64,000 nucleotides of DNA, taken from positions 1 to 64,000 of the forward strand of contig NZ_VICD02000007.1 of assembly GCF_006546735.2 (NCBI RefSeq), read 5' to 3'. Under the pieces are notes generated by a model. The model had not been told where the DNA came from. It was given only the letters and a program-made list of their open reading frames with translations, and did not search any database. Source of the DNA: Marilutibacter maris (GTDB taxonomy: Bacteria > Pseudomonadota > Gammaproteobacteria > Xanthomonadales > Xanthomonadaceae). Made by a program: the position numbers and the translations under genes. Every line of letters starts with the position of its first letter. Within the stretch, counting starts at the first letter, position 1. Shown here piece by piece: positions 16,372 to 63,999 of this stretch.

Positions 16372-16403
16372 GACACCCTATTTCATAACTTACATTACAT
16401 AGT

Positions 16404-18350: not shown

Positions 18351-18353
18351 TGC

Positions 18354-19544: not shown

Positions 19545-19568
19545 GTTGACTCCTAAGGTGAAGGGGCG

Positions 19569-20726: not shown

Positions 20727-20764
20727 CGGACTTTCCTTGCATCATCATCGATGGAGCATTTGTA

Positions 20765-20789: not shown

Positions 20790-20802
20790 CAATCTTCGCA
20801 TC

Positions 20803-21381: not shown

Positions 21382-21397
21382 TGAAATGGAAACCAGA

Positions 21398-22909: not shown

Positions 22910-22976
22910 GCTGCCACTATCCGTTGCATTGCACAAAGGGAGCGTGCGCGCCTTTGATGGAAGGAGGCAGCAATGA
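22902..22976 (+). CDS. 24-aa ORF coupling hsdM to hsdS
   Basis: An ATG inside the end of hsdM opens a 24-residue frame, MSELPLSVALHKGS..., whose TGA overlaps the ATG of hsdS (ATGA at 22973-22976). A ribosome site (AAGGAGG) for hsdS lies within it. MSELP is a common opening for HsdS proteins, so this may be the remnant N-terminus of an older hsdS whose first domain was replaced, now working as a leader ORF. It is too short to judge by composition. Confidence 0.45.
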   Translation: MSELPLSVALHKGSVRAFDGRRQQ

Positions 22977-24124: not shown

Positions 24125-27100
24125 ACGACAGCGCCCCCGACACCCGCGAGAAGGTCAGCGCGCAACTTCCTGCGTTGCATCTGCTCGCCAACCTGGGCTG
24201 GCATTACCGGGGGGCGGCCGAGTGCGTGGCGCTACGTGACGGCACCCGCGAGGTAATGCTGAAGTCACGTCTGATCGAGGCCTTGAAGGCTCGTCGCTTC
24301 GACTACAAGGGCCAGCAGTACCCACTCTCGCCCAGCGCGATCGATCAGATGGTCCGCGAGCTGTCGGCGCTGCCTATGGGCGAGGGGCTACTGGTCGCCA
24401 ACGAACGCCTGTACCAGCTGCTGGCACTAGGTATCACCGTCACCGAATTCATGCCGGACGGCAAGAAGCACCAGCCGACTATTCCGGTGATCGACTGGAC
24501 CGACCCCGCCGCCAACCTCTGGGACGTCACCGACGAGTGCGAGGTGCTGTCCACCCAGGGCACGCACCACCGCACGCCGGACATCGTCTGCTACGTAAAT
24601 GGTCTGCCACTGGTAGTGATCGAAGCCAAGCGCCCCGAGTCCGGTCACGCCGGCAAGGCCATGGTAACCGAGGGCATCAGCCAGCACCTACGCAACCAAC
24701 GCCAGGACGAGATTCCGCAACTGTTCGCCTACGCGCAGCTTCTGCTGTCCATCAGCCTGACTGACGGACGCTACGGCACCACCCATACCCCCGCCAAGTT
24801 TTGGGCGCGATGGCGCGAAGAGGAGTTCGACGAAGCACACCTCACGGCCGTCAAGAACCACACGCTACCGAGCAGCACCCTGGACGCAATACTCCACAAT
24901 AAGCCGGCCCGGGTGCGCGTCTACTGTGAGTCGCTGTGGTCCCAGCCCATGCTGCCCACCGACCAGGACCGCCTGCTGGTAGGCCTGTTGACTCGCGCGA
25001 GGCTCCTAGAGTTCCTGCGCTGCTTCGTTCTGTTCGACCGGAAGGTTGGCAAGGTCGTCGCTCGCTATCAACAGTTCTTTGGCATTCGCGCGCTACTGGC
25101 CCGGATCAGCCAGATCCGCCCGGATGGAGGGCGAGAGGGCGGCGTGCTCTGGCATACCACCGGCTCAGGCAAAAGCTTCACCATGGTTTTCCTGACCAAG
25201 GCGTTGCTGCTGGATACGGCTCTGAAGGAATGCCGCGTCGTCGTGGTGACTGACCGCGTCGACCTGGAGACGCAGCTGTCGCGCAATTTCATCAGTGGCG
25301 GGGCGTTCGGCTCAGCCATCGCCACAAAAAAAGAAGGCGAGCGCAGCAAGGCGACGACCGGCCGCGACTTGGCACGTCGTATCGGACATGGTACCGAGCG
25401 AATCACGTTCTCACTGGTCCAGAAGTTCAACACAGCGTCAAAGCTGCCCGAGTGCCGCAACGAATCGGCTGACCTAATCGTGCTTGTGGACGAGGGCCAC
25501 CGCAGCCATGGTGGTGAGACTCACGAGCGAATGCGTAAGGCCTTACCCAAAGCCGCCTACCTAGCCTTTACTGGCACGCCGCTCCTCAAGGACGAGAAGA
25601 CCGCCAACAAGTTCGGCCCTATCGTTCACGCCTACTCGATGCAGCGCGCGGTGGAGGACGAAACCGTCGCGCCGCTGCTCTACGAAGAGCGCGTGCCCGA
25701 ACTCGAGGTCAACGAAGCGGCCGTCAACCGCTGGTTCGACAAGATCACGGCTGGTCTGTCCGACGCACAGAGTTCAGATCTAAAGAAGAAGTTCGCCAGC
25801 AAGCGCGCCATCTACGGCGCGGCGAACCGCATCGAGTTGATCGCCTGGGACATCGCCACCCATTTCAACGAGAACATCAAGCAACTCGGCATGGGGCTGA
25901 AGGGGCAGATTGCCACCGACAGCAAGCTAGACGCCATCCGCTACAAGCGGGCGCTGGACGAAACCGGGCTCGTCAGTACTGCGGTCGTCATCTCACCACC
26001 CGACACCCGTGAGGGCAACACCGAGGTGGATGAGGAATCATTGCCTGAGGTGCAGCGATGGTGGAAGCAGAACATCATCGACCGCAAGCTTGACCCGGAG
26101 GGGTATGAGAAGGACGTCATCCGAGACTTCGGCAGCGACGACGCGCCTGACCTCCTGATCGTCGTCGACAAGCTGCTCACCGGCTTCGACGAACCGCGCA
26201 ACACGGTTCTGTACATCGACAAGCCTTTGAAGGGCCACAACTTGATCCAAGCCGTTGCTCGGGTCAACCGACTGCATGATGCCAAACGCTACGGCGTCCT
26301 GGTGGATTACCGCGGCATCCTCCCGGAGCTCGACACGGCCGTGCGGGCATACCAAGACCTCGAAGCCCAGACCCAGGCCGGCTTCGATCTGGCCGATCTC
26401 GAAGGGCTCTATCAATCCATCAGCACCGAATACAAGCGCCTCCCGGGCCTGCACGACCGCGTCTGGTCCTTCTTTAAGGGCGTTGCCAACCGCAAGGATC
26501 TAGAACAGTACCGACAGGTCCTAAGCCCCCGCTTCGTCTCAGGCGAGGACGGCGAGGAGTACGACGAGCGTCAGAAGCTGCGCGATGACTTCTCCACAGC
26601 CTTGACCGAGTTCGGCCTGTGCCTGCAAATGGCCCTGTCGTCGCGCAGCTTCTTCGAGGACGCTAGCTTCTCCGAGACAACGATTCGTCGGTACAAAGAC
26701 GACCTGCGCTTCTTCTCCAGCCTTCGTCGGATTGCCCGGCAAGATGCCATGGAGACGGTCGAATACAGCGCCTATGAAGAACAGATCCGGCGACTGGTCG
26801 ACAAGCAGGTCATTGGTACCGAGGTTCGGGAACCGGAAGGCGTGTACCTGGTGCATGAGTTGGGCAAGCCCGAGGATCCAGAGGGCTGGACCGAGGAAAA
26901 GACTCGCAACGAGACGGACCTGATCCGGACGCGTATCCGCAAAACCATCGAGCAGGATCTCGCTGGCGATCCCTACGCACAGAAGGTGTTCGGTGAACTG
27001 CTACGCCAAGCGATCGCTGAAGCCGAAGCGATGTTCGATCACCCGCTGAAGCAATACGCCCTGTTCAAGAAGTTCGAAGATCGCCTGGAAGCTTTGCAGG

Positions 27101-27417
27101 TACCCGGGATACCGAATGGTCTGGAGACCAATCGGCAGGCCAAGGCCTACTACGGCGCTATCCGTCTTGAGCTGGGCGACGAAAAGATTGACGCCATGTC
27201 TGAGGCCGAGCGCGCCAGTCTGACTGATCTCTCGATGGAGATCGACACCGTCGTCCGTGACGCAGTCGCCGAGAACTCGCTTAATCCGCAGAGCATCGAG
27301 TCCGCGATCCGTAAGAATTTGCTGCCCAGGCTGTTCCAGTTGATCGGGCTTGATCATGCCCGCGCCGTGGTGGAGCAGGTGGTACAAATCACCCGGATTG
27401 GGCTCAGCCGCGCATGA
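24121..27417 (+). CDS. hsdR: type I restriction endonuclease HsdR, 1098 aa
   Basis: This is the motor and nuclease subunit. The N-terminal nuclease domain has TPDIVCYVNGLPLVVIEAKR (about 154-170), a PD-(D/E)xK core (Asp156, Glu-x-Lys). The superfamily 2 translocase follows: HTTGSGKSF Walker A near 346, TDRVDLETQLSRNF (motif Ia), VDEGHRSH (DEAD-like motif II) near 457, AFTGTPLL (motif III), LLIVVDKLLTGFDEPRNTVL (motif V) and LIQAVARVNRLHD (motif VI). The C-terminus is helical and binds the HsdM/S core. All key residues are there, so it should be active. It overlaps hsdS and the next gene by ATGA. Confidence 0.96.
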   Translation: MNDSAPDTREKVSAQLPALHLLANLGWHYRGAAECVALRDGTREVMLKSRLIEALKARRFDYKGQQYPLSPSAIDQMVRELSALPMGEGLLVANERLYQLLALGITVTEFMPDGKKHQPTIPVIDWTDPAANLWDVTDECEVLSTQGTHHRTPDIVCYVNGLPLVVIEAKRPESGHAGKAMVTEGISQHLRNQRQDEIPQLFAYAQLLLSISLTDGRYGTTHTPAKFWARWREEEFDEAHLTAVKNHTLPSSTLDAILHNKPARVRVYCESLWSQPMLPTDQDRLLVGLLTRARLLEFLRCFVLFDRKVGKVVARYQQFFGIRALLARISQIRPDGGREGGVLWHTTGSGKSFTMVFLTKALLLDTALKECRVVVVTDRVDLETQLSRNFISGGAFGSAIATKKEGERSKATTGRDLARRIGHGTERITFSLVQKFNTASKLPECRNESADLIVLVDEGHRSHGGETHERMRKALPKAAYLAFTGTPLLKDEKTANKFGPIVHAYSMQRAVEDETVAPLLYEERVPELEVNEAAVNRWFDKITAGLSDAQSSDLKKKFASKRAIYGAANRIELIAWDIATHFNENIKQLGMGLKGQIATDSKLDAIRYKRALDETGLVSTAVVISPPDTREGNTEVDEESLPEVQRWWKQNIIDRKLDPEGYEKDVIRDFGSDDAPDLLIVVDKLLTGFDEPRNTVLYIDKPLKGHNLIQAVARVNRLHDAKRYGVLVDYRGILPELDTAVRAYQDLEAQTQAGFDLADLEGLYQSISTEYKRLPGLHDRVWSFFKGVANRKDLEQYRQVLSPRFVSGEDGEEYDERQKLRDDFSTALTEFGLCLQMALSSRSFFEDASFSETTIRRYKDDLRFFSSLRRIARQDAMETVEYSAYEEQIRRLVDKQVIGTEVREPEGVYLVHELGKPEDPEGWTEEKTRNETDLIRTRIRKTIEQDLAGDPYAQKVFGELLRQAIAEAEAMFDHPLKQYALFKKFEDRLEALQVPGIPNGLETNRQAKAYYGAIRLELGDEKIDAMSEAERASLTDLSMEIDTVVRDAVAENSLNPQSIESAIRKNLLPRLFQLIGLDHARAVVEQVVQITRIGLSRA

Positions 27418-28160
27418 AGGAGGCGCAGACCAGCACCCGCTTGGTACTTCCTTACGGCGACAGTCGAATTCGCTGTGAGGTTCGGCGTTCGAAGCAACGC
27501 GTGAAGCGCAGCGTCGCCATCCATGTCGAACCGGACGGACGCGTGGTGGTCGATGCCCCCCTGCAGGCGGCCGACCCTGACATCCGCTTGGCAATAACGC
27601 GCCGATTGGCTTGGATCCACCGACGGATGGTGGAAGTCGAAAATCGCCAGATGGTGCTCACCCCGCGCGAGTACGTCAGCGGAGAGACCGCGGTTTACCT
27701 GGGCCGCCGCTATCGCCTTAAGGTCGTAAGCACCCAAGGCGGAAACCAGGTTCGCCTTCGGGGCGGCTACCTGGAGGTGGCCGTGAGCAACAGGTCTCCG
27801 GAGACCGTAAGACACGAACTGGAGCAGTGGTTCCAAGCCAGGGCAAAAGAGTTCCTGCCGCGACGTCTGGCGATGATGTCAGAGCGCCTGAAATGGGTGA
27901 AGGCGATTCCACCGCTGTCGATCAGGCGCATGAGCAGGCAGTGGGGTAGTTGTTCTCCCCAAGGACGCATTGCCCTCAACGCGGGCTTAGTGCGCGTGCC
28001 TCGAGAATGCATCGACTATGTGCTGCTCCATGAGCTGATCCATCTCAGGGAGCACAACCACGGCCCAGCGTTCTATCGAATCCTCGACCGGCACCTTCCC
28101 GACTGGAAACGAACCAAGGCGCGGCTGGACGCACTGGCTGACTTGGCACTCGCTAGGTAG
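27414..28160 (+). CDS. YgjP/SprT-like zinc metallopeptidase (DUF45), 248 aa
   Basis: The C-terminal half carries YVLLHELIHLREHNHGPAFY: HELIH zinc-binding and catalytic residues plus a later His, as in YgjP/DUF45 proteins. RRMSRQWGSCSPQGRIALN before it is the other family signature. The N-terminal half (RSKQRVKRSVAIHVEPDGRV) is a beta-rich domain. These soluble metallopeptidase-like proteins often sit directly behind hsdR in type I loci, but their part in restriction is not established. The ATG overlaps the hsdR stop, so it belongs to the same operon and is probably its last gene. Confidence 0.87.
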   Translation: MKEAQTSTRLVLPYGDSRIRCEVRRSKQRVKRSVAIHVEPDGRVVVDAPLQAADPDIRLAITRRLAWIHRRMVEVENRQMVLTPREYVSGETAVYLGRRYRLKVVSTQGGNQVRLRGGYLEVAVSNRSPETVRHELEQWFQARAKEFLPRRLAMMSERLKWVKAIPPLSIRRMSRQWGSCSPQGRIALNAGLVRVPRECIDYVLLHELIHLREHNHGPAFYRILDRHLPDWKRTKARLDALADLALAR

Positions 28161-51746: not shown

Positions 51747-52259
51747 ATGACGACCAAGGAAGAAGTGACGCTGCCGCTGATGACGGTCCGCCAGCTGGCA
51801 CGGCAGGGCGATGTCACGGTGCATGTGGTGCGCAACTACCTGCGGCGCGGTCTGTTGCAAGCGGCCACGCGTACCGAGGGCGGCTACCAGTTGTTCTCCA
51901 CCTCGGAGCTCCTTCGCCTGCACTTCATTCGCACGGCGCAACACCTTGGCTTCACGCTGGGGGAAATCGAGGAAATCATCCACCACAGCCTGCTGCGACA
52001 TAGTCCCTGTCCGCTTGTGCGGGACATCATTCGGCGCAGGCTCGACGACACCCGCCAACAACTGGACAGGCTGCTCGCCATGCACGGACGAATGGAGCGT
52101 GCCATCCACGCCTGGGCGGAGCTTCCGGACTCCATTCCGACTGGCGATGACGTCTGCGCATTGATCGAATCTGTTGCCGCTGCTGAAGGCGGCGGGTTCG
52201 TCAAGTCCACCCCCCGGCGACTTCTTGGACGCCGCCCCACAGAGGAGAATTTGCCATGA
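51747..52259 (+). CDS. MerR-family transcriptional regulator, 170 aa
   Basis: Winged helix: LMTVRQLARQGDVTVHVVRN, YLRRGLLQAATRTEGGYQLF, LRLHFIRTAQHLGFTLGEIE, then a coiled dimer helix (DTRQQLDRLLAMHGRMERAI). Candidate effector Cys are HSPCPLVRD (about residue 90) and DDVCALI (about 137), not the CueR loop, so its metal may differ from copper; it has some look of MerD. The YLRRG hinge is unusual. It should bind its own promoter and, by ATGA overlap, leads a ten-gene train. Confidence 0.86.
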   Translation: MTTKEEVTLPLMTVRQLARQGDVTVHVVRNYLRRGLLQAATRTEGGYQLFSTSELLRLHFIRTAQHLGFTLGEIEEIIHHSLLRHSPCPLVRDIIRRRLDDTRQQLDRLLAMHGRMERAIHAWAELPDSIPTGDDVCALIESVAAAEGGGFVKSTPRRLLGRRPTEENLP

Positions 52260-52570
52260 CAGCCTCCAGTCCTGCCCCCTCAGGCTCCCGACGCTGGGTC
52301 TTCTGGATCTTCCTGGCGCTGGCCGTGTTCTATCTCGCCGTCGAGCACCGCGCCCACCTTGGGGGGACGCTTCGCTGGTTGCCCCTGGCCATCCTGCTGC
52401 TATGTCCCTTGATGCATGTGTTCATGCACAAGGGGCATGGCGGTCATGGAGGTTCCGGAAGTCATGGGCGCGACGGCAATGCCGACGACACACCCCATGG
52501 CCAGCATGAGAGCCGTAGCAAGCGGGCACTGAACGACGAAACGTCCGACACCTCGAACGGAGGGCACTGA
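52256..52570 (+). CDS. DUF2933-like His-rich membrane protein, 104 aa
   Basis: Two membrane helices (WVFWIFLALAVFYLAVEHR and WLPLAILLLCPLMHVFMHKG) with the CPLMHVFMHKGHGGHG signature seen in DUF2933 proteins, and a His/Gly/Asp-rich tail. Cys, Met and His at the end of the second helix suggest metal binding at the membrane. Function unknown. Overlaps merR by ATGA and precedes the methyltransferase by 1 nt. Confidence 0.82.
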   Translation: MTASSPAPSGSRRWVFWIFLALAVFYLAVEHRAHLGGTLRWLPLAILLLCPLMHVFMHKGHGGHGGSGSHGRDGNADDTPHGQHESRSKRALNDETSDTSNGGH

Positions 52571-52571
52571 C

Positions 52572-53237
52572 ATGCAGGCACCCGACTCCGGCTACGGCCT
52601 TTGGCTGCTGGCCGCCATCAACGCCGCGTTCTTCATCTTCTTCGCCTGGAGCTTCTACAAGCCCTTGACCCGCTGGGACTGGCGGGGGTTCGGGATGTTC
52701 TCCGCCTTCGTCGTGGCCCTGTTCGCGGAAATGTATGGCTTCCCGCTGACGTTGTACGTCCTGGGCGGGTGGCTCAGTGCCAATTATCCGCAAGTGAACT
52801 GGCTCAGCCATGACGCGGGCCATCTGCTCGAGATGTGGTTCGGCTGGCGCGCCAACCCGCATTTCGGCCCATTCCACATCGCAAGCTTCGTCCTGATCGG
52901 CGGCGGCTTCTGGCTGCTGTCGGCCGCCTGGCCGATGCTGTATCGGGCACAGCGTGAAGGCCGGCTCGCCCGCGAGGGCGTGTATGCGCGCATGCGTCAC
53001 CCGCAGTACGTCGCCTTCGTGCTCGTGCTGACCGGCTTCCTGCTGCAGTGGCCCACGCTGCTCACGCTCGCCAGCTATCCGGTGCTCGTGTGGGCCTATG
53101 CCCGACTGGCGCGCCGTGAGGAAAAAGACTGCTTGAGCCGCTTCGGCGACGACTACGTCCGCTACATGCAGGAAGTGCCGGCCTTCATCCCCCGACGCCG
53201 GCGCGGCCCCGCCCCATCCCAAGGAGAAGCCCGATGA
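52572..53237 (+). CDS. isoprenylcysteine carboxyl methyltransferase family protein, 221 aa
   Basis: A membrane protein with about five helices. The C-terminal half has the ICMT/PEMT signature: [20 protein letters not shown] near 137-156 and [20 protein letters not shown] near 177-196, which form the SAM site at the membrane surface. Bacterial members of this group are common beside heavy-metal pumps; the substrate (lipid, isoprenoid thiol or metal) is unknown. ATGA overlap with the ATPase gene following. Confidence 0.85.
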
Positions 53238-55624
53238 TGCAGGTCCACGAACCCACGGTGCGCACGCGCACCTGGCCCATCGGCGACATGGTGAGCACCG
53301 GCTGCGCGCGCACGCTGGAGAAGGCCGTGGCCGCGCTGCCTGGAGTCAACGCCACCAGCGCGAACTTCGCCACCGCGACCCTGCAGGTGTCCTACGACCC
53401 GGCCCGCCTGTCGTCGGGTGCGGTCGCCACCGCGATCCGTGACTGCGGCTTTCAATGCGACGCCTCGATGCCCGCTGCCGGCTCCGCCACAGGCGCGCAC
53501 GACCATGCTGCGCATGCCAGGCACGGACAGGATACGGTCGCGGCGCACACTGCCGACGCCCACGCCGGCCACGGCGATGACGCCAGGGATGCCGCAGGTC
53601 ACGACGCGCATGCGGGCATGAACCACGGCAGCGATCTGCACGCCGCGGCGCGCGACATGGGCCGCCGCTTCCTGGTCGCCCTCGCCTTCGCGATCCCGGT
53701 ATTCGTGTGGTCGCCCATGGGCGGCCTGATGGAGCCGCCGCCGGTGCCGTTTGGACTGCGCGAGAACGTCTGGTTGTTCCTGCTGGCGACCGGCGCCGTG
53801 CTGTATCCGGGCTGGCCGTTCTTCAGTGCGGCGATTCGTTCGCTGCGCCGCGGCGTGCTGGACATGGCGGTGCTGGTGCTGCTGAGCGTGGGCACCGGTT
53901 ACGGGTTCAGCATCGCGTCGACGTTCTTCTTCGACGGACCGAACTTCTACGAGGCCTCAGCGGTCCTGCTGACCTTCGTACTGCTCGGCCACTGGCTCGA
54001 GATGCGGGCACGCGCCGGCGCCTCGGATGCCATGAAGGCGTTGTTGAAGCTGTCCCCGCCCCGCGCGGTGGTACGCCGTGACGGACAGGAGCTCGACATT
54101 CCGACCGCCGAAGTCCTGGTTGGCGATATCGTCGTGGTGCGGCCCGGGGCGAAGATCCCCGTCGACGGCACCGTCACTGAAGGCAGCTCCCAGGTCGACG
54201 AATCCATGCTGACCGGCGAGTCGATGCCCGTGCGCAAAGACCCCGGGGCCTCCGTTGTCGGCGGATCGATCAACAAGAGCGGCGCATTTGCCTACACCGC
54301 CACCAGGATCGGCAGCGACACCGCACTGGCGCAGATCATTAAGCTGGTCCAGACCGCACAGAACTCCAAGGCGCCCGCGCAACTGCTCGCCGACCGCGCT
54401 TCGCAGTGGCTGGTGCTGGCCGCGATCGTGATCGGGCTGCTGACCTTCGCGGTCTGGTTCTGGTGGCAGGGACAGCCGCTCATGTTCGCGCTCACGCTGA
54501 CGATCACCGTCTTCGTCATTGCCTGTCCCGACGCACTGGGTTTGGCCACCCCGATGGCGATCATGATCGGCACGGGCCTGGGCGCTCGACACGGCATTCT
54601 GTTCAAACACGCCGAAGCCATCGAGAAGAGCGCCCGGCTGGACGTTGTGATCTTTGACAAGACTGGAACCCTGACGGTCGGTGCACCGGAGGTGGTCGAC
54701 ATGGCGGTCGCACCGGGCTGGACGCAGGAGCGGCTACTGGCCACGGCCGCTGCGGTCGAGGCGCATTCGGAGCACCCGCTGGCGCAAGCGATCCTCAAGC
54801 GCGCCGGTCCGGCAGCCGAACGCGCTACGGCCTTCACCAACATCGACGGCCAGGGCGCCACCGGGGTGGTTGACGGGGTGCAGGTCCTGCTGGGCAATCG
54901 CATCCTGATGGTCGAACACGCAATCGATCTATCCGTGCTGGAAGCGGAGGCCGCGCGCCTTACCGGCGCCGGCCGCACCGTGATCTATGCAGGGGTAGGC
55001 GGCGAGCTTGCGGGCTTCTTCGCAATTGCCGACGCGATCCGCGAGACCTCGCGCGCCGCCATCGACGAACTGCATCGTCGCAACATCAAAGTGGCGATGA
55101 TCACCGGCGACAATCGCCCCACCGCCGAACGCGTAGCTCAGGATCTGGGGATCGACATCGTACTGGCAGACGTGTTGCCTGGCGGCAAGTCCGACGAGGT
55201 CATCAAGCTGCAGTCGCAGGGCCTCAAGGTCGGCATGGTGGGCGACGGCATCAACGACGCACCGGCGCTGACGCAGGCCGACGTCGGCTTCGCGATCGGC
55301 GCCGGCACGGACGTCGCCATCGAGAGCGCCGACATCGTGCTCATGCACAGCGACCCCTACGACGTCGTGCGCGCGACCTCCATCGCCCGGGCCACCCTGC
55401 GCAAGATGCACCAGAACCTCGGCTGGGCCGTGGGTTACAACGTGCTGGCCTTCCCGCTCGCGGCCGGCGTGTTCTATCCGTTCGTGCTGTCGCCGGAAAT
55501 CGCCGCCCTGTCGATGTCGGGAAGTTCGGTGATCGTGGCCCTCAATGCCTTGCTTCTCAAACGCCTTCCACTGGCGGACGTTGCCGCCTCCCCTCGCATC
55601 CAGTCCAAGGAGTCCACGCCATGA
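53234..55624 (+). CDS. P1B-type ATPase with CPD motif and degenerate HMA domain, 796 aa
   Basis: The HMA-like N-terminus ([20 protein letters not shown]) keeps only one Cys (Cys24) where CxxC is expected. A His-rich linker follows (about 85-140: [21 protein letters not shown]). Eight helices; the ion-path motif is CPD (Cys431-Pro-Asp433, in [13 protein letters not shown]) instead of CPC. Other motifs are intact: [19 protein letters not shown] (Asp475), [29 protein letters not shown] pumps are annotated as copper or generic heavy-metal ATPases; the true ion is uncertain. It sits in the MerR-led train, with ATGA overlaps on both sides. Confidence 0.93.
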
Positions 55625-56034
55625 ATCCCGCGACGCACCTTGCCCACCCAAGGGCCCGAGGCACGTATCCCCGCCGCTGGCATGCCGCGCTGGCCTTGGC
55701 TGCTCTGTTCGCCTTCGCACTGCCGGGTGTCGCCTCGGCGAGTGAAGGTGGGTTCCGTCACAACGTACTGATGCGCGGCCAAGTGTTGGAGAAGCAGGAC
55801 GAAACGCTCGTCGTCTGCGTCGGACAGGCCGACGGCGCTCAGGTCGGGCAGGTGCTGGATGTGATCCGGCACAAGCGCCGCATCCGGCATTCGCGGACCG
55901 GCGGTCCACGCTACCGCCGTGAAAACGTCGGCCAAGTGCGGATCGTTGAACTGTTCGACGGTCACTACGCGGATGCCGAAGTGATCTCCGGCAGCCCCAA
56001 GGTCAACGACACGGTGGAGCTCGTTCGCCCCTGA
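55621..56034 (+). CDS. exported small protein with a beta-strand C-terminal domain, 137 aa
   Basis: Signal peptide ([20 protein letters not shown], cleavage near ASA). The mature part is a compact beta-rich domain: [56 protein letters not shown] and [10 protein letters not shown]. The pattern 'VGQVxIxELFDxHYAxAxV...G...ND.VEL' resembles the C-terminal domain of FlgT-like and similar stress proteins. No enzyme residues. Overlaps the ATPase stop by ATGA; 80 nt before the nuclease gene. Confidence 0.72.
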
Positions 56035-56114: not shown

Positions 56115-57500
56115 ATGACAGCGTCTTCCAACCCCACCCTGCAGTTCCTCGGCGCCGCGGGCACAGTCACCGGCTCGCGCTACCTGGTCGAGGCCAACGG
56201 CCAGCGCGTGCTGGTCGACTGCGGCCTGTTCCAGGGCTACAAACAGCTGCGCGAGCGCAACTGGGCACCGTTTCCCGTCGACGCGGCATCAATCGATGCG
56301 GTGATCCTGACCCACGCCCACTTGGACCATTCGGGCTACCTGCCCGCACTCGTCAAGCAGGGGTTCCGCGGCCGGATCCACTGCACCCACGGCAGCGTGG
56401 CGCTGTGCGGACTGCTGCTTCCCGACAGCGGGCACCTGCTGGAAGAAGAGGCGAAGTACGCCGCGCGCAAGGGCTACTCGAAGCACAAGGAGCCGCGACC
56501 GCTCTATACGGAAGAGGACGCCCGTCGCAGCCTGAAGCAGCTGCAGGGACATGACCATGAACGCGACATCGAGGTCGCGCCCGGCTTCACGGTGCGCTTC
56601 CACCCCGCAGGCCACATCCTGGGCGCCGCCCACGTCAGCTTGGATGTCCAGGGGCAGCGCCTGCACTTCAGCGGCGACTTGGGACGGCAGCAGGAATCGC
56701 TGATGAATCCGCCGACGCCCCTGCCCGCCTGCGACGTACTGGTCTGCGAGTCCACTTACGGCAATCGCGAACACGTCCCGATCGACCAGGAAGCGGAATT
56801 GGCCCCGATCATCCGCCGTGTTGCCGCGCGCGGGGGCGTTATCGTCATCCCCGCCTTTGCTGTCGGCCGCGCCCAGGCGCTCATGCTGCATATCGCCCGG
56901 CTGCGTGAGCGCAAGGAGATCCCTCGCGTGCCGGTGTACCTCAACAGCCCGATGGCGATCAACGCGACCCGGCACTACCACGCCCACCATTCCGAGCACC
57001 ACGTGTCCGAAGAGGACTGCCAGCGGATGTTCGACGTGGCCACCTTCGTCAACACGGTGGAAGAGTCGAAGGCGCTCAACCGCCAGCGCGGGCCGATGAT
57101 CATCATCTCCGCCAGCGGGATGGCGACCGGGGGGCGCGTGTTGCACCACATCGAAGCGTTCGGCCCCGATGACCGCAACGCGATCCTCCTCGCGGGCTAC
57201 CAAGCCGGCGGAACACGCGGTGCCGCGCTGGCGGCAGGAAAGCGAACCTTGCGCATGTTTGGCCGCGAGGTCCCCATTCGCGCCGAGGTAGTGCAGCTGG
57301 AAGGCTTCTCTGGCCACGCCGACGCCGGGGAACTGCTGGACTGGATGCGCACCGCGCCGTCCGCGCCGCGCGTCGTCTACCTCACCCACGGCGAGCCCGA
57401 TGCAGCCGACACGTTGCGCGGGCGCGTGCAGCGTGAGCTGGGCTGGCGCGCGCGCGTTCCGGAGCACCTGGAGCGCGTTGGGCTGGAGGATGCGCGATGA
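56115..57500 (+). CDS. MBL-fold beta-CASP RNA-processing exonuclease, 461 aa
   Basis: A metallo-beta-lactamase/beta-CASP nuclease. Zinc motifs: AVILTHAHLDHSGYLPALVK (HxHxDH), FHPAGHILGAAHVSLD, HFSGDLGR and VCESTYGNREH; the beta-CASP insert has VIVIPAFAVGRAQALMLHIA, ISASGMATGGRVLHHIEAFG and a last VYLTHGEPDAADTL. It is of the YSH1/CPSF73-like bacterial group, acting as endo- or 5'-3' exoribonuclease in the cytosol. AGGAG precedes the ATG. Its stop overlaps the phosphorylase start, so RNA cleavage and nucleotide phosphorolysis are co-expressed. Confidence 0.92.
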   Translation: MTASSNPTLQFLGAAGTVTGSRYLVEANGQRVLVDCGLFQGYKQLRERNWAPFPVDAASIDAVILTHAHLDHSGYLPALVKQGFRGRIHCTHGSVALCGLLLPDSGHLLEEEAKYAARKGYSKHKEPRPLYTEEDARRSLKQLQGHDHERDIEVAPGFTVRFHPAGHILGAAHVSLDVQGQRLHFSGDLGRQQESLMNPPTPLPACDVLVCESTYGNREHVPIDQEAELAPIIRRVAARGGVIVIPAFAVGRAQALMLHIARLRERKEIPRVPVYLNSPMAINATRHYHAHHSEHHVSEEDCQRMFDVATFVNTVEESKALNRQRGPMIIISASGMATGGRVLHHIEAFGPDDRNAILLAGYQAGGTRGAALAAGKRTLRMFGREVPIRAEVVQLEGFSGHADAGELLDWMRTAPSAPRVVYLTHGEPDAADTLRGRVQRELGWRARVPEHLERVGLEDAR

Positions 57501-59014
57501 GCGAGCTGGCCGCTGGTCACACCCTGCTGCGCGTCACCCGTGCCGGCATCGACACCTACCAGCAGCCGGTGGTGTACATGCACCGCGACTGTGAAGTCTG
57601 CCGCTCGGAAGGCTTTGCCGCGATGACTCGCGTGAGGCTAGACGTGGGTTCGCGCACGCTGGTGGCGACTCTGAACGTGGTCGTGGACGATCGGCTCGGC
57701 CTGGACGAGGTGGCGCTCTCGGAGACCGCGTGGACGCTGCTCGATCCCATGCCCGATGTCCTTGCCCGGGTCCGGCACGCGGAACCCGCGGCGTCGGCAG
57801 GCGCGCTCCGCGCCAAGGTGTTCGGGGCACGGCTGGACGACGCGCAGTACCTCGCCCTGGTGCAGGACGTGATAGAAAGCAGGCTGTCGGACCTGGAGCT
57901 TGCCGCCTTCGTCACGGCCAGCGCGGGCGACCGCCTCGACAACGTCGAGACGACCGCGCTGACGCGGGCCATGATCGCGGTTGGCCAGCGCCTGGACTGG
58001 GGCGATGGGCCGGTGCTGGACAAGCACTGCGTCGGCGGCCTGCCGGGCAATCGCACCACCCCGATCGTGGTGGCCATCGTGGCCGCGCTGGGCTACCGCA
58101 TCCCGAAGACGTCCTCGCGCGCCATCACATCGCCCGCGGGCACCGCCGACACCATGGAAGTGATGGCGCCGGTGGCGCTCGACCTGGCGGCGATGCGGCG
58201 GGTGGTGGAGCGCGAGGGCGGCTGCATCGTCTGGGGCGGCAACGTGCGCCTGAGCCCGGCCGACGACATCCTGATCCGGGTCCAGCGGCCGCTGGATTTC
58301 GACAGCGACGGCCAACTGGTCGCCAGCGTGCTGTCGAAGAAGATCGCGGCGGGCTCCACCCACGTGCTGATCGACATGCCGGTGGGTCCGACCGCCAAGG
58401 TGCGCAGTGAGGCTGCGGCCGACAGCCTCGGCTCGCGGCTTGCACACACCGCCAGCGCGCTTGGATTGCAGCTGGCCATCCATCGCTCCGACGGCACCCA
58501 GCCGGTGGGTCGGGGCATCGGCCCGGCGCTCGAGGCGCACGATGTGCTCAAGGTGCTGCGCAACGCCACCGACGCACCGGCCGACCTGCGCGAACGCGCG
58601 CTTGCGCTGTCGGCGGCGCTGCTGGACATGGCACCGGGCAGCAGCGCCGGCACCGGACTGGAGCGCGCGCGCAGCGTGCTGGATTCCGGAAGGGCGCTGG
58701 CCAAGTTCCTGGCGATCTGCGAAGCCCAGGGAGGCTTCCGCGAACCGGCGCGGGCGCCATTCACCGCCGATGTTCCGGCATCCGCGTCGGGCCGCATCAC
58801 GGAAATCGACAACCGCAGGCTGGCCAAGCTGGCCAAGTTGGCCGGCGCACCCACATCCCCCACCGCCGGCCTGGAAACGAGTCTGCGCGTCGGCGATGCG
58901 GTCGAGCGCGGACAGCCTCTGCTGACCCTGCATGCGGAGTCTCCGGGCGAGCTGGCCTATGCGCTGGAGCACGCCGCCACCTTGCAACCCTTCGTCCTTG
59001 GAGAGGTTCCATGA
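57497..59014 (+). CDS. AMP phosphorylase-like (thymidine phosphorylase family), 505 aa
   Basis: The length (505) and an N-terminal extension of about 85 residues fit archaeal AMP phosphorylase (about 503 aa) rather than DeoA (440). The signature DKHCVGGLPGNRTT near 174-187 has the PGN form of AMP phosphorylases, not DKHSTGGVGD of thymidine phosphorylase. Other blocks are AKVFGARLDDAQYLALVQDV, TSSRAITSPAGTADTMEVMA, DDILIRVQRPLDFDSDGQLV and STHVLIDMPVGPTAKVRSEA. Expected reaction: NMP + Pi to base + ribose 1,5-bisphosphate. Such genes are often labelled 'thymidine phosphorylase'. Substrate is inferred from the motif. Confidence 0.85.
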   Translation: MSELAAGHTLLRVTRAGIDTYQQPVVYMHRDCEVCRSEGFAAMTRVRLDVGSRTLVATLNVVVDDRLGLDEVALSETAWTLLDPMPDVLARVRHAEPAASAGALRAKVFGARLDDAQYLALVQDVIESRLSDLELAAFVTASAGDRLDNVETTALTRAMIAVGQRLDWGDGPVLDKHCVGGLPGNRTTPIVVAIVAALGYRIPKTSSRAITSPAGTADTMEVMAPVALDLAAMRRVVEREGGCIVWGGNVRLSPADDILIRVQRPLDFDSDGQLVASVLSKKIAAGSTHVLIDMPVGPTAKVRSEAAADSLGSRLAHTASALGLQLAIHRSDGTQPVGRGIGPALEAHDVLKVLRNATDAPADLRERALALSAALLDMAPGSSAGTGLERARSVLDSGRALAKFLAICEAQGGFREPARAPFTADVPASASGRITEIDNRRLAKLAKLAGAPTSPTAGLETSLRVGDAVERGQPLLTLHAESPGELAYALEHAATLQPFVLGEVP

Positions 59015-59925
59015 CCCGTGTGCTGATGCCTTTCCCGGCCGATGCAGCATTGGCCAGCACCATGAACCAGGCTATGCAGGCGCGCATTGCAGCTGTGGCC
59101 TGGCGGCACTTTCCCGACGGCGAGTCGCTGGTGACCCTGGAGGACTCTCTGGCTGGCACGGATGTGGCCATCCTGGCCAGCCTGCGCCACGCCGATGCCC
59201 TGGCCCTCCCGTTGCGTTTCGCCGCCCGAACGGCGCGCGAGTTCGGAGCGCGCTCGGTCGGCCTGATCGCGCCCTACCTGGGGTACATGCGCCAAGACAA
59301 GCGTTTCCATGGTGGTGAAGCGGTCAGCACCCCTCTGTTTGCCCAGTTCCTGGAGGAGGCGTTCGACTGGCTGGTGACCGTGGACCCGCACCTGCACCGC
59401 GTCGAGCGTCTGCAATCGCTCTACCAAATGCCGACGGCCCATGTGTCGGCAACGCCGGCCATGGCGCGCTGGATCGCCGAGACCGTCCCCGACGCGGTTC
59501 TGATTGGACCCGACAGCGAGAGCGAGCAATGGGTCGCCGACATCGCCGCCCGCTCCGGCATGCCCTGGCAGGTGCTGACCAAGGAGCGGCACGGCGACTA
59601 TGACGTGCGCGTGAGCCTGCCCGACCCGGCGGCCGTAGCCGGCCGCACCCCGGTGCTGATCGACGACATCGTGTCGTCAGGCCACACGATCCTGGAAACC
59701 CTCGCGCACCTGCGCCAGCTGTCCCTGCCGCCGCCGCTGCTGGTCGCCATCCATCCGGTGTTCGCGGGCGATGCTTATGCCCGCCTGCAGGAGGCGGGCC
59801 TGGCCCGCATCGTGAGCACCGACACCATTCCCCACCCGTCGAACGCGATTGCGCTCGGCGCGGACCTTGCCGCTGCGGCCTCGACACTGATGACCGCGTC
59901 GACCGATTCCCCGGAGGACCCATGA
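59011..59925 (+). CDS. prs: ribose-phosphate pyrophosphokinase (PRPP synthetase), 304 aa
   Basis: Two phosphoribosyltransferase-fold halves: WRHFPDGESLVTLEDS, YLGYMRQDKRFHGGEAVSTP (ATP-binding flexible loop), VTVDPHLHRVERL near 127, and the PRPP loop VLIDDIVSSGHTILETL near 215. Makes PRPP from ribose 5-phosphate and ATP. It is shorter and more divergent than a housekeeping Prs (about 315 aa), closer to the non-allosteric archaeal type. It is probably a second copy dedicated to this operon. ATGA overlaps on both sides. The symbol follows the enzyme; it may not be the essential Prs. Confidence 0.88.
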   Translation: MTRVLMPFPADAALASTMNQAMQARIAAVAWRHFPDGESLVTLEDSLAGTDVAILASLRHADALALPLRFAARTAREFGARSVGLIAPYLGYMRQDKRFHGGEAVSTPLFAQFLEEAFDWLVTVDPHLHRVERLQSLYQMPTAHVSATPAMARWIAETVPDAVLIGPDSESEQWVADIAARSGMPWQVLTKERHGDYDVRVSLPDPAAVAGRTPVLIDDIVSSGHTILETLAHLRQLSLPPPLLVAIHPVFAGDAYARLQEAGLARIVSTDTIPHPSNAIALGADLAAAASTLMTASTDSPEDP

Positions 59926-62384
59926 ACCTGCATCTCAACTGCTGCACCGCCGACCAGCTGTTGGCCGCCGAGCGCCAGCGGATCCTTGAACTCGCCGACG
60001 CCCACCGGCAGGCCGATCCCGCGTTCGCCCACTGGGCGGCCGGCTACGGGGTGATCCGACATGACCCGCTTACCCAGCTCCGGGTCCGCCAGATGGTGCA
60101 CGAGCTGGTCGCCCTGGGCCGCACGCCGGATGCCGGCACCGCATGGCAGCGGCTCGCCGCGGCCGACCGCGTCACCAGCGCCGGCATGTGGCTGGTGGCG
60201 CACATGACCTACAGCCAGCGCGTTCGTACCGACGGCGCGGCCCTGGAGGTCGATGATTTCAAGACCACGCCTGAAGGCCACACCGGCGGGTCCCTCAACA
60301 TGGTGCCCGCCTACGCCGGCTACCTGCTGATGGATTCCCTGGATGGCGTCACCCGCGCGTGGATGATGGGCCAGGGGCACTGCGTGGCCGCCATCGACGC
60401 GCTGAACGTGCTGGTTGGCAACATGACCGACCGGCACGCCGAACGTTACGACCGCACCGGCGAAGGGCTGAGCCGGTTCGTAAGCGACTTCTATGCCTAC
60501 ACCCTCAATCCGGACGGAACGCCGGCGTCGCCCCTCGGCTCCCACGTCAATGCGCACACCGCCGGGGGCGTGATGGAAGGCGGCTATCTCGGCTTTGCCG
60601 AGCTGCAGTACGTGCATGCGCCGCTCAAGGATGAACGCCTGGTCGCCTTCCTCAGCGACGGTGCGTTCGAGGAACAGCGTGGCAGCGACTGGGCGCCACG
60701 CTGGTGGCGCGCCGAGGACAGCGGACTGGTCAGCCCGATCATCATCCTCAACGGGCGCCGCATCGAACAGCGCAGCCAGATCACCCAGCAGGGCGGCGAG
60801 CGGTGGCTGGACCGGCACCTGCGATTGAACGGCTTTGATCCGATCGCGCTGGACGGGCGCGATCCGGCCAGCATCGCGTGGGGCATCCACGTGATGGAGT
60901 CGCGCCTGCAAGCGGGCGCCGCTGTTCCCGCCGACGTGCGGCTGCCCTATGGCATCGCCGAAACCGTCAAGGGCTTCGGCTTCCCCGGCGCCGGGACCAA
61001 CGCCTCGCACAACTTGCCGCTGCCGGGGAATCCGGCGAAGGATGCCGCGGCGCGCACGCTCTTCAATGAAGGCGCAGCGGCGCTGTTCGTGGCCGCGTCG
61101 GAGCTCGAGCAGGCCGTTGCCGCACTCAACAGCCACGATCTCCAGCAGCGGGTGCGCGAGCGCGACCATGCGCTGGCCGATCGCCAGGTGGAACCGCCCC
61201 GCGTCCCGGCGATCGCCGACCGCGGCGCCGGCGGCGAGAGCTCGCCGATGACCGCGCTCGACGAGCAGTTTGTCGCGATCGCCGAAGCGAACCCGGGCCT
61301 GCGCGTGCGCGTGGGCAATCCCGACGAGCTGCGCAGCAACAAGCTCGACCGCACCCTGGACGCGATGAAGCACCGGGTGCATGAGCCCGAGCCCGGCGTC
61401 GCCGAATCGCCCACCGGCGCGGTCATCACCGCGCTCAACGAGGAAGCCGTGGTCTGCGCCGCACTCGGCAACAAGGGCGGGCTGAACCTGGTGGTCACCT
61501 ACGAGGCGTTCGCACCGAAGATGCTGGGCGCCGTGCGCCAGGAGCTGATCTTCGCCCGCCATCAGGCGCAGGCGGGACGTCCGCCCGGCTGGCTGGGCGT
61601 GCCCCTGGTGCTGACCTCCCACACCTGGGAGAACGCGAAGAACGAGCAGTCGCATCAGGATCCGACCATGGCCGAGGCGCTGCTGGGCGAAATGGCCGAC
61701 ATTTCGCGCGTGGTGTTTCCCCCGGACGCCAATGGCGCCGCCGCGGCCCTCGCCCACGCCTACGCGCAACGCGGCACGGTCACCACCCTGGTCGTCCCCA
61801 AGCGCCCGGTGCCGCATGAGCTGACGCCACAGCAGGCCGAGGCGCTGGCCGTGACCGGCGCAACCTGCCTGGCCGGCGATCCGGCGACGGCGGCGATCCT
61901 GCTGGTGGCCACCGGCGCGTACCAGCTGCAGGAAGTGCGTCGCGCGCAGGCGCGCCTGGCCGAACGCGGGGTGTCGGCCGCGATCGTCTATCTCGGCGAG
62001 CCCGGCCGGTTCCGCGCGCCGCGCGATCCGGAGGAGGCGCGGTACGTGCACTCCGACAGCGCGGTCCAGGCGCTGTTCCCGGTGGGCCGACCGCGCGTAT
62101 TCGTCACCCACACCCGCCCCGAACCCTTCCTCGGCGCCCTGCGCCGGCTCGACACCGGCCCGGCCACCACCGCGGCGCTGGGCTTCGTCAACCGCGGCGG
62201 CACGCTGGACGTGCCCGGCCTGCTGTTCGCCAACCGCAGCACCTGGGCGCACGTGGTCGACGCGGCCGCGGGCGTCCTCGGCGAGTCCCGTGGCAGCCTG
62301 TTGTCGGAAGCGGAGCTGGCGGCAGTGGATGGTCGCGGCGATCCGGCCACCGTCCTGCGCCCGGAAACGGGACAGGCGTCGTGA
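59922..62384 (+). CDS. xfp: xylulose 5-phosphate/fructose 6-phosphate phosphoketolase, 820 aa
   Basis: This is a ThDP enzyme cutting xylulose 5-P (or fructose 6-P) with phosphate to acetyl phosphate and glyceraldehyde 3-P (or erythrose 4-P). Family blocks are all present: HWAAGYGVIRHDPLTQLRVR-like start, KTTPEGHTGGSLNMVPAYAG near 111-130, GQGHCVAAIDALN, SHVNAHTAGGVMEGGYLGFA, LSDGAFEEQRGSDWAPRWWR, FPGAGTNASHNLPLPGNP near 355, and SHTWENAKNEQSHQDPTMAE near 565. Length fits (790-825). Acetyl phosphate can feed acetate kinase for ATP; no ackA is seen in the window. ATGA overlap with prs. Confidence 0.95.
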   Translation: MNLHLNCCTADQLLAAERQRILELADAHRQADPAFAHWAAGYGVIRHDPLTQLRVRQMVHELVALGRTPDAGTAWQRLAAADRVTSAGMWLVAHMTYSQRVRTDGAALEVDDFKTTPEGHTGGSLNMVPAYAGYLLMDSLDGVTRAWMMGQGHCVAAIDALNVLVGNMTDRHAERYDRTGEGLSRFVSDFYAYTLNPDGTPASPLGSHVNAHTAGGVMEGGYLGFAELQYVHAPLKDERLVAFLSDGAFEEQRGSDWAPRWWRAEDSGLVSPIIILNGRRIEQRSQITQQGGERWLDRHLRLNGFDPIALDGRDPASIAWGIHVMESRLQAGAAVPADVRLPYGIAETVKGFGFPGAGTNASHNLPLPGNPAKDAAARTLFNEGAAALFVAASELEQAVAALNSHDLQQRVRERDHALADRQVEPPRVPAIADRGAGGESSPMTALDEQFVAIAEANPGLRVRVGNPDELRSNKLDRTLDAMKHRVHEPEPGVAESPTGAVITALNEEAVVCAALGNKGGLNLVVTYEAFAPKMLGAVRQELIFARHQAQAGRPPGWLGVPLVLTSHTWENAKNEQSHQDPTMAEALLGEMADISRVVFPPDANGAAAALAHAYAQRGTVTTLVVPKRPVPHELTPQQAEALAVTGATCLAGDPATAAILLVATGAYQLQEVRRAQARLAERGVSAAIVYLGEPGRFRAPRDPEEARYVHSDSAVQALFPVGRPRVFVTHTRPEPFLGALRRLDTGPATTAALGFVNRGGTLDVPGLLFANRSTWAHVVDAAAGVLGESRGSLLSEAELAAVDGRGDPATVLRPETGQAS

Positions 62385-62409
62385 GCGTGCCGGCCAGGAC
62401 CTCGCGCTG

Positions 62410-63999
62410 ATGGCCGGCACGGTGCGCCGCGGAGGTCAGATCGCCTGGGCCGGACTGAAGCTCGGAGTCGCCGTGCTGCGCCTGCGCCGGCGTGCACCCG
62501 ATCGGCTTCCCGCCTACATCAGCACCACCCTGGTGGGGCTCGGCACAACCTTCGTCAAGCTGGGCCAGGGCTTGAGCCTGCGCTGGGACCTGCTGCCGGC
62601 GCCCTATCGAGAGGCGCTGTCGCGACTGCACAGCGATGTGCCGGCGTTTCCTGCGGAGCAGGCGAGGCGCAGCGTCGAGCAGGCGTTCGGCGCACCGGTC
62701 GACGCGCTCTTCGCCAGCTTCGATGACAGGCCGCTGGCCGCGGCTTCAGTCGCCCAGATCCACCCGGCGCGCATGCATGACGGACGCGACGTGGTCGTCA
62801 AGATCACCCGCCCCGGCATCCATGCCCAAGTGCAGGCCGACCTGCGGCTGCTGCGGCGCACGGTGCGCGTGGCCCAGTGGCTGTGGCCGCCGCTCATGCG
62901 GCACCGCCCGCTCGAACTCGTCGACGAACTGGGTGCCTTCCTGCGCGACGAGATCGACATGCGCCACGAAGCACAGAACATGCGTCGCATGGCCAGGGTG
63001 CTTGACGCCCTGCCCGGCATCACCCAGCCACACGTCGTCGAACCTTACGCCGCCCGCGCCGTGATGGTCCAGGATCGAAGCCACGGCACCCGCCTCGAGG
63101 CCGCCTACGGAACAGCGGCCGCTCCCGCACTGGCGAGGGAGCTGCTGGATGCCTACGTGCATCAGGTGTTCGGCGCCGGCGTATTCCATGCAGATCCCCA
63201 TCCGGGGAATCTGTTCTTCTTCGACGACGGTCGCCTGTGCCTGCATGATTTCGGCTCGATCGGCGTGCTCGACCCGGCTTCCCGGCTCGCGCTGGGCGGC
63301 ATGGTCGAGGCCATCGCGGCCGACGATGCCGAGGGCGTGCTGGATGCGGCAATCGCCCTGGGATTCTTCCCGCCACAGGTCGAGCGACGCTCACATGTGC
63401 GAGAGATCCACCTGATCCTGGCCGAGATGGCCAGCCGCCCGCTGGCGGAATGGTCCATTGCCGAGGCGATCTGGCGCGTGGCACGCATTGGGCAGGGCGC
63501 TGGCTTCCGGCTACCCGCCCACCTGTTGGCCCTGATCCGCACGTTGTTCCTGGTCGAGAACACGCTGCGGGCACTGGATCCGGACATGGACCTGCTGGGC
63601 ACGCTGTCGGCGCAGGCAGCCGACGTCATGGCGATCGTCGACGCCAGCCGACCCGCGCGCCGTCCGCTGGCGATGCGGCTGGCACGCACCGCCCGCCAGC
63701 TGCCGCAGATCGCCACCGACCTGTTGCGACAGGCACAGCTGAGTGACGGACGACCCGCGTTCTCGGTGCACCACCACGGCCTGGCTCCCACGCACGAGGC
63801 GCTCGCGCGCACCGGCAACCGGCTGGCGCTGGCCCTGGTTACCCTGGGCCTCTACGTCAGCGGTGCCCTGCTCGCCCTGCACAGCACCGGTCCGCTACTG
63901 GCCGGACATCTGCCATGGCTGTCCGTCATCGCGTTCGCCGGCGCAGCGCTCCTGTCGCTGCGGCTCGTCGTTGCCATAGGACGGTCAGGCCACCTGTAA
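62410..63999 (+). CDS. ABC1/UbiB-family atypical kinase, 529 aa
   Basis: A membrane-anchored protein-kinase-like ATPase. Signatures: GTTFVKLGQGLSLRWDLLPA (KxGQ helix), AAASVAQIHPARMHDGRDVV (Ala-rich loop and Lys), DEIDMRHEAQNMRRMARVLD, FHADPHPGNLFFFDDGRLCL and LHDFGSIG (DFG-like). Two hydrophobic helices lie at the C-terminus (LALALVTLGLYVSGALLALH and WLSVIAFAGAALLSLRLVVA). UbiB proteins help ubiquinone biosynthesis by extracting lipid precursors, but this copy is outside a ubi operon and may serve membrane stress. It is 25 nt after the phosphoketolase stop, ending at the window edge. Confidence 0.9.
   Translation: MAGTVRRGGQIAWAGLKLGVAVLRLRRRAPDRLPAYISTTLVGLGTTFVKLGQGLSLRWDLLPAPYREALSRLHSDVPAFPAEQARRSVEQAFGAPVDALFASFDDRPLAAASVAQIHPARMHDGRDVVVKITRPGIHAQVQADLRLLRRTVRVAQWLWPPLMRHRPLELVDELGAFLRDEIDMRHEAQNMRRMARVLDALPGITQPHVVEPYAARAVMVQDRSHGTRLEAAYGTAAAPALARELLDAYVHQVFGAGVFHADPHPGNLFFFDDGRLCLHDFGSIGVLDPASRLALGGMVEAIAADDAEGVLDAAIALGFFPPQVERRSHVREIHLILAEMASRPLAEWSIAEAIWRVARIGQGAGFRLPAHLLALIRTLFLVENTLRALDPDMDLLGTLSAQAADVMAIVDASRPARRPLAMRLARTARQLPQIATDLLRQAQLSDGRPAFSVHHHGLAPTHEALARTGNRLALALVTLGLYVSGALLALHSTGPLLAGHLPWLSVIAFAGAALLSLRLVVAIGRSGHL

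Follow-up and report, generated by a model that had tools for sequence, protein, structure and literature searches.

A nucleoside 5'-monophosphate phosphorylase-like gene under a thymidine phosphorylase name, and its PRPP-synthetase-family partner, in Marilutibacter maris

The first 64,000 nucleotides of contig NZ_VICD02000007.1 of Marilutibacter maris (the window, by which we mean this whole stretch) carry ten co-directional, tightly packed genes, six of the nine junctions being 4-base overlaps. In order, they encode a MerR-like regulator, a small protein, a methyltransferase-like protein, a P-type ATPase, a 137-aa protein, a beta-CASP ribonuclease (RNase)-like protein, a protein that we call NMPp, a divergent member of the phosphoribosyl pyrophosphate (PRPP) synthetase family (Prs2), a phosphoketolase-like protein and an ABC1 kinase (Table 1). 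We focus on NMPp, which an earlier note, made from the DNA letters, had taken for an AMP phosphorylase probably mislabelled as thymidine phosphorylase (TP). We find that it is probably a nucleoside 5'-monophosphate (NMP) phosphorylase feeding ribose 1,5-bisphosphate (R15P) to Prs2. The gene is real. It overlaps both flanking genes by 4 bases (57497/57500 and 59011/59014), and its product shares 44-94% identity with 43 bacterial relatives, 25-40% with 79 archaeal proteins and 25-32% with 17 TP-type proteins.

Table 1. Features of the NMPp operon in the window
Feature	Coordinates	Strand	Basis or remark
NMPp, nucleoside 5'-monophosphate phosphorylase-like protein, 505 aa	57497..59014	+	Open reading frame (ORF), families, structure, residues, tree
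NMPp N-terminal domain, residues 1-97	57497..57787	+	Common to 4ga5 (AMP phosphorylase); outside the listed structures of TP and pyrimidine nucleoside phosphorylase (PyNP)
DKHCVGGLPGN, residues 175-185, with inserted Pro183	58019..58051	+	Sequence and alignment
KTSSRAIT, residues 204-211	58106..58129	+	K204, T205, S207 and T211 separate NMPp from TP (alignment)
Prs2, divergent PRPP-synthetase-family protein (NF005537/PRK07199)	59011..59925	+	Second copy, canonical one elsewhere in the genome; 4-base overlap with NMPp
Metallo-beta-lactamase (MBL)/beta-CASP ribonuclease-like protein	56115..57500	+	Nearest solved relative RNase TTHA0252
Divergent phosphoketolase-family protein	59922..62384	+	Family scans
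ABC1/AarF (UbiB-like) kinase-family protein	62404..63999	+	Last gene of the run in the window; start hand-chosen, scanned from 62290
Upstream run: MerR-like regulator, small protein, isoprenylcysteine-methyltransferase-like protein, P-type ATPase, 137-aa protein	51747..56034	+	Overlapping or near-overlapping frames; names from sequence and annotated plasmid relatives

Of the 299 genomes sampled in the phylum, 36 have NMPp at E <= 1e-100, including the genome of the window; 114 of 72,556 plasmid records also match. It passes, at full length, the cut-offs of two NCBI models, NF003338 'thymidine phosphorylase' (648 bits, cut-off 434) and TIGR02645 'putative thymidine phosphorylase' (560 bits, cut-off 434.6). 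Among the 30 plasmid matches listed (of 114), 26 are annotated as thymidine phosphorylase or thymidine phosphorylase family protein, the other four having no feature. Since it is these models that give NMPp the name, we can confirm that thymidine phosphorylase is a mislabel, as the earlier note had held. The NMP phosphorylase of Thermococcus kodakarensis was once annotated as thymidine phosphorylase too (PMC8376864); it is now called NMP phosphorylase, with AMP, CMP and UMP as substrates (PMC9700705). A deoA protein, of this or another family, is reported to be raised under uranium (PMC6315756).

The best solved relative of NMPp is the AMP phosphorylase of T. kodakarensis (314 bits, versus at most 124 for PyNP or TP). 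An AlphaFold2 model based on a 43-row alignment (mean predicted local distance difference test score 93.9) was matched by 4ga5_A over 498 columns (TMq 0.91). In VIA-align this chain covers model residues 9-502, with 488 residues aligned at a root mean square deviation of 2.1, while the listed TP and PyNP chains begin at model residues 95-99 and give no N-terminal coverage. Thus the N-terminal domain, needed for activity in the archaeal enzyme, is common to both, and the model of NMPp has the full fold of the Thermococcus AMP (NMP) phosphorylase, this domain included. The lengths agree with the comparison drawn in the earlier note: NMPp has 505 aa, the median archaeal ORF 510 aa and the AMP_phos model 500 positions, versus 440 residues in the structure of E. 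coli TP (1tpt).

We then compared residues by aligning 44 bacterial and 79 archaeal rows with 17 of TP type. Both the Pro inserted in GG-x-P-G and the KTSSRAIT motif are present in NMPp, as in AMP phosphorylase. Pro183 occurs in 44/44 bacterial and 75/79 archaeal rows, with a gap in 17/17 TP rows, and K204, present in all bacterial (44/44) and archaeal (79/79) rows, is Met in 17/17 TP rows. Where TP mostly has Ile, T205 is kept in 43/44 bacterial and 78/79 archaeal rows; where TP mostly has Gly, S207 (44/44 and 78/79) and T211 (44/44 and 79/79) are found. K204 replaces a TP residue that lies near the base or sugar, and we propose that the region of K204, T205, S207 and T211 helps to hold the 5'-phosphate of the nucleotide. 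K176, H177 and K281, active-site residues in TP, are retained. The segment DKHCVGGLPGN, in the region of the TP phosphate site, had been read as an archaeal signature. This is true of GG-x-PGN with its Pro, which is common to archaea. As for DKHC, the idea was ruled out: Cys178 is a bacterial mark (41/44 rows), with Ser in 76/79 archaeal and 17/17 TP rows.

For phylogeny, a first tree with TrpD as outgroup combined 44 of 47 bacterial rows including the window, 40 of 79 archaeal rows and 17 TP rows. The bacterial rows left out were one outside the ORF cluster (L059) and two partial ones (L097 and L098). Eighty archaeal loci had been fetched for their similarity to the Thermococcus enzyme, one of which fell outside the cluster. 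The stretch fetched for E. coli DeoA ends within the gene, so that this row is truncated at the C terminus. The 17 TP rows formed one side of a branch with support 99 (99-100 over two trees), the 40 archaeal rows one side of a branch with support 97, and the 44 bacterial rows grouped, together with the window, with support 94. Topology tests were performed on a 60-row tree. The earlier note had suggested a phylogeny with DeoA sequences, and placement of NMPp within the TP/DeoA clade was rejected (approximately unbiased (AU) test, p 0.0009). Descent from within the archaeal enzymes, as sampled by similarity to that of Thermococcus, was rejected as well (window held with 20 archaeal rows, p 6e-50; the root rests on one long TrpD branch). 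The row closest to the window belongs to another genus of its family (94%), whereas the copy of a same-genus genome is only 65% alike, suggesting that this operon moved from one lineage to another. NMPp most likely is a phosphorylase of whole nucleotides, cleaving them with phosphate like the known archaeal enzyme.

Prs2 is a near-obligate partner of NMPp. It passes NF005537 (PRK07199) with 368 bits (cut-off 322), and 44 of 46 related loci have a Prs-like gene near the phosphorylase on the same strand. With the first possible start codons used, the 4-base overlap between the two genes recurs in 24 of the 43 measured pairs; in three of the 43, a Prs gene of like orientation lies some 5 kb upstream. 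L078, L097 and L098 were without a Prs ORF in the cluster, although L078 has a Prs match by tblastn. A canonical Prs (at least 358 bits) was present in all 35 NMPp genomes searched and a further divergent Prs in 34 of them, so Prs2 is not the housekeeping enzyme; the only genome without a second Prs is the fusion genome G304 described below. In the 299-genome sample, own genome included, Prs2 (E <= 1e-50) was detected in 34 of 36 NMPp genomes and in 0 of 263 others (Fisher p 9e-43, a value that ignores kinship). The NMPp and Prs2 lists over these 299 genomes were of equal size and had matching handles wherever both print one, non-matching genomes being mostly unprinted. Of the two NMPp genomes without Prs2, one has a copy fused to PhnN (G304) and the other a copy with an inner TGA (G310). 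An origin of the Prs link in the archaeal gene neighbourhood was rejected, as only 5 of 80 archaeal loci have Prs nearby.

Expectations for Prs2 in the family of G304 were written down before counting. Prs2 was absent from 6/6 fusion-only genomes (G304 already being known) and from 10/10 genomes with neither standalone NMPp nor fusion, and it was present in 19/22 genomes with standalone NMPp. One further genome without Prs2, G416, has the fusion plus a standalone copy with an inner stop, a case left open in the prediction.

The fusion joins the phosphorylase to PhnN, whose substrate is R15P (PMC9700705). It was found in 9 of 150 genomes of G304's family and on plasmids of the betaproteobacteria Variovorax and Paraburkholderia and of the alphaproteobacterium Pacificitalea; two annotated plasmid fusion genes are named PhnN only. 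All three fusions scanned (G304, Pacificitalea, Variovorax) pass the cut-offs of TIGR02322 and NF003338, the one of Variovorax covering the phosphorylase model nearly whole (positions 6-488), and two of the three remain below the TIGR02645 cut-off. This natural fusion to an R15P kinase strongly supports the view that the NMPp family would make R15P. The earlier note had seen a context of NMP breakdown; what we found is more specific, namely a near-obligate Prs2 partner and a PhnN-fused variant.

We examined 12 fusion loci (L097, L221, L222, L223 and L236-L243). All 12 have nadC upstream, in the same orientation as the fusion gene. It adjoins the fusion gene in seven and lies about 1 kb upstream in five (L237-L241), separated from it by an opposite-strand ORF, a relative of the annotated MarR-type regulator of the Variovorax locus. 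A TctC/Bug receptor gene was present in 6/12 loci, and the one receptor compared with solved structures was nearest to Bug27 (366 bits). Nicotinate-degradation-like genes occurred in 4/12 loci (L237, L241, L242 and L243), each with 5-7 of 8 query proteins that came from the fusion loci themselves. Best PDB matches of single examples were 6-hydroxynicotinate 3-monooxygenase (564 bits, in two loci), 2,5-dihydroxypyridine 5,6-dioxygenase (406 bits, in three), maleate isomerase (371 bits, in two) and an isochorismatase-like hydrolase (in three); a molybdopterin subunit was named by Pfam. None of the 44 Prs2-type loci contained nadC, PhnN or NicC/D/E/X/F-like genes; one of them (L078) has a TctC match and another (L079) 2Fe-2S and molybdopterin matches. 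Bug27 has been reported to bind quinolinate, and bug27 adjoins nadC and phnN in Variovorax (PMC11452294); the word 'phosphorylase' is absent from the main text of that paper. Possibly, then, the fusion loci encode a cycle that regenerates PRPP: NadC would convert imported quinolinate and PRPP into nicotinate mononucleotide (NaMN), the phosphorylase domain would split NaMN with phosphate into nicotinate and R15P, and PhnN would use ATP to turn R15P into PRPP again. If true, this would explain how quinolinate could be degraded via NaMN, as well as the quinolinate-binding receptor gene beside nadC and 'phnN'.

R15P is generally regarded, in the main, as an intermediate of archaeal or phosphonate metabolism. 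Our searches for RuBisCO, R15P isomerase and PhnN covered 44 NMPp genomes. In the window's genome there was no RuBisCO match, and the best matches to the R15P isomerase and PhnN families stayed below their cut-offs (205 bits versus 314 and 51 versus 156, respectively). The archaeal NMP shunt, looked for as R15P isomerase plus RuBisCO in the same genome, is thus not found there, and with none of the three above cut-off Prs2 is the obvious candidate for taking R15P. We infer the catalysed reaction, the accepted bases and the passing of R15P to Prs2 as follows. The RNase of the window operon would supply NMPs, and NMPp would convert NMP and phosphate into nucleobase and R15P. Prs2, whose gene follows and overlaps that of NMPp, would turn this R15P into PRPP or ribose 5-phosphate, leaving the pentose to be broken down by the phosphoketolase. 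Prs2 might catalyse R15P + ATP -> PRPP + ADP or, alternatively, R15P + AMP -> ribose 5-phosphate + ADP, and in the latter case high-energy phosphate would be saved from RNA. The best reading of both arrangements is that a nucleotide and phosphate would give base and R15P, which Prs2 (window type) or PhnN (fusion type) would carry on to PRPP, a precursor of new nucleotides and of NAD. We further advance, tentatively and with somewhat less than even confidence, that Pseudomonadota have, in the R15P released by phosphorolysis of nucleotides, a dedicated source of PRPP which was built twice, that Prs2 consumes R15P and not ribose 5-phosphate, and that fusion and NadC cycle quinolinate to nicotinate. 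A wrong name on a widespread gene probably hides a branch of R15P metabolism in ordinary bacteria. If the pairing holds, these bacteria could, to judge from the context, make PRPP or save energy from RNA breakdown under copper-poisoned or oxygen-starved respiration. Literature joining these genes was found, among open-access papers, only in Bradyrhizobium tables and in the Bug27 paper.

In Bradyrhizobium, bll3115 (MBL), bll3116 (Prs) and bll3117 ('thymidine phosphorylase family') are listed as raised at 0.5% oxygen in both protein and transcript (PMC6515984). bll3117-bll3116-bll3115 are listed as one predicted operon, which has a FixK2 box at -74 and is lowered in fixK2 mutants, and the same table contains the phosphoketolase-acetate kinase pair bll2518-bll2517 (PMC9104804). 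Membership of bll3117 in the NMPp clade was judged by name and gene order. The same FixK2 box sequence lies 74 bases before the ORF start used in L079, and FNR-type boxes were detected in 12 of 43 related clusters versus 1.1 expected (mononucleotide shuffles; slightly looser pattern; -300 to +150 relative to the start of the first ORF). For the window operon itself, an upstream FNR box was rejected: allowing one mismatch at most, the sole site in the window for TTGAT-N4-ATCAA is at 45097, with a chance expectation of 0.37. The window's NMPp copy sits in a copper island.

Several observations weigh against a pathway from NMPp to Prs2. NMPp does not reach the cut-off of the AMP phosphorylase equivalog TIGR03327 (AMP_phos; 441.3 bits versus 535) and belongs to its own bacterial clade, so that, judged by score and tree, it does not strictly qualify as an archaeal-type AMP phosphorylase; of the identity given in the earlier note, the nucleotide-phosphorylase kind stands, whereas the score and a position outside the sampled archaeal clade speak against the rest. 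Cys178 occupies, in its 41 of 44 bacterial rows, the place of a phosphate-site Ser in TP. An activity report for any member of the bacterial clade was not found in the open-access literature. The counts of co-occurrence ignore shared ancestry, and the Prs2 model is not specific for Prs2 below its cut-off, where it is matched by 5 of 14 control genomes outside the phylum, among them Thermus composti and Sulfolobus acidocaldarius, which have no NMPp at the strict threshold. Prs2 is missing in three of the 22 standalone-NMPp genomes (G396, G419 and G454) and is therefore not always needed; in G454 an RNase-like gene still adjoins the phosphorylase. Only 10 of 46 related loci have a phosphoketolase nearby, in one case at just 23% identity, and bll3115-3117 are marked as lying outside the earlier-defined FixK2 targets (PMC6515984). 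Finally, Prs2 keeps the ordinary catalytic residues of PRPP synthetases (RQD 94-96, H127, K191, R193, DD 218-219 and T226) and hence may simply use ribose 5-phosphate, even though it differs from six canonical Prs at conserved G79, E103, H129-R130, E170-S171 and W174. NMPp would then be an NMP phosphorylase beside an ordinary PRPP synthetase, either removing the AMP that Prs2 forms or building NMPs from base and R15P; AMP is both a product of Prs and a substrate of NMPp, and phosphorolysis is reversible. We regard this as less likely, since a canonical Prs is already present in all 35 genomes counted, the sole intact exception in the sample has PhnN fused instead, and the dependence is one-sided: Prs2 without NMPp occurs in 0/263 genomes while NMPp without Prs2 exists, which fits a Prs2 acting downstream of NMPp.

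There is very little chance that the database name is right and that NMPp is a thymidine or pyrimidine nucleoside phosphorylase with an extra N-terminal domain. The superfamily is the same, the TP active-site residues K176, H177 and K281 are kept, and a shared-domain search of the own genome returned only NMPp and a second match taken as TrpD, but no other TP-like gene. However, NMPp stays far below the TP/PyNP models (TIGR02643, 142 versus 570.7 bits; NF004490, 186 versus 269; TIGR02644, 179 versus 409), the AU test rejects the TP clade, residues differ at K204, T205, S207, T211 and P183, and the family is naturally fused with an R15P kinase. Moreover, two relatives, G043 and G048, have besides NMPp a second match (192-198 bits) that is of TP size as far as score and range tell. 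Somewhat less remote, but still quite improbable, is a main substrate that is one special nucleotide such as NaMN instead of RNA-derived NMPs. The constant nadC and the nicotinate-degradation-like genes of the fusion loci (12/12 and 4/12) speak for it, whereas the 0/44 count for nadC and NicC/D/E/X/F-like genes at Prs2-type loci and the RNase-like gene that the window operon has instead speak against it.

Among known systems, the archaeal AMP/NMP phosphorylase (TIGR03327; TK0352; 4ga4, 4ga5 and 4ga6) resembles NMPp in full-length fold, N-terminal domain, length and the GG-x-PG and KTSSRAIT motifs, with 36-42% identity over structure alignments. NMPp differs by Cys178 (Ser in archaea), its sub-cut-off score, its separate bacterial clade, a genome without R15P isomerase or RuBisCO over cut-off, and its pairing with Prs2. 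At the archaeal loci, RuBisCO-like genes were near the enzyme in 15/80, R15P-isomerase-like genes in 15/80 and both in 11, one of each being family-confirmed. DeoA, Pdp and TYMP act on nucleosides, not nucleotides. They share the fold from about residue 97 to 505 and several active-site residues, but have neither the N-terminal domain nor the inserted Pro, and mostly Met/Ile/Gly/Gly at K204/T205/S207/T211. For the NF003338 and TIGR02645 models, both passed at full length, the model name is unsupported in this clade. PhnN (ribose 1,5-bisphosphate phosphokinase), a different protein family fused to this phosphorylase, would play the part proposed for Prs2. Homologues of archaeal AMP phosphorylase in uncultivated bacterial phyla with form III RuBisCO are already in print (PMC9700705, and for WOR-3); those enzymes belong to a RuBisCO pathway and are set beside NMPp by description only.

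Gene neighbourhoods were viewed within stretches of 10-20 kb. The RNase-like gene is near NMPp in 24/46 related loci, on the opposite strand in one. The phosphoketolase-like protein reaches at most 122 bits with the listed NCBIfam phosphoketolase models (cut-offs from 777), passes the Pfam XFP cut-offs and keeps the SHQDP, TYEAFA and GSH motifs; it is very divergent. An acetate kinase match in the own genome was below cut-off (214 versus 293 bits). The 137-aa protein, the only one of the five upstream genes to be scanned, gave no family match. A plasmid of Acidovorax sp. T1 (L181) has an MBL-phosphorylase-Prs run together with polyphosphate kinase 2, an acetate/propionate kinase and a 2.4-kb gene annotated as xylulose 5-phosphate 3-epimerase, which looks like an ATP-saving stress island.

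Farther upstream in the window, a 772-aa ORF at 9890-12208 has coding-like base composition without a Pfam match, and no tRNA was found beside the island within the window. In the stretch 15322-28160, a KfrA-like gene and an integrase are followed by a CBASS pair, consisting of a DncV-like cyclase and an HNH-SAVED effector, and by type I restriction-modification genes. The copper island at 28462-51574 encodes, by Pfam, a cation efflux protein, a multicopper oxidase, CopD, two heavy-metal P-type ATPases and an outer-membrane efflux protein, followed by a resistance-nodulation-division (RND)-type efflux pump, read from the sequence, that leads into the phosphorylase operon.

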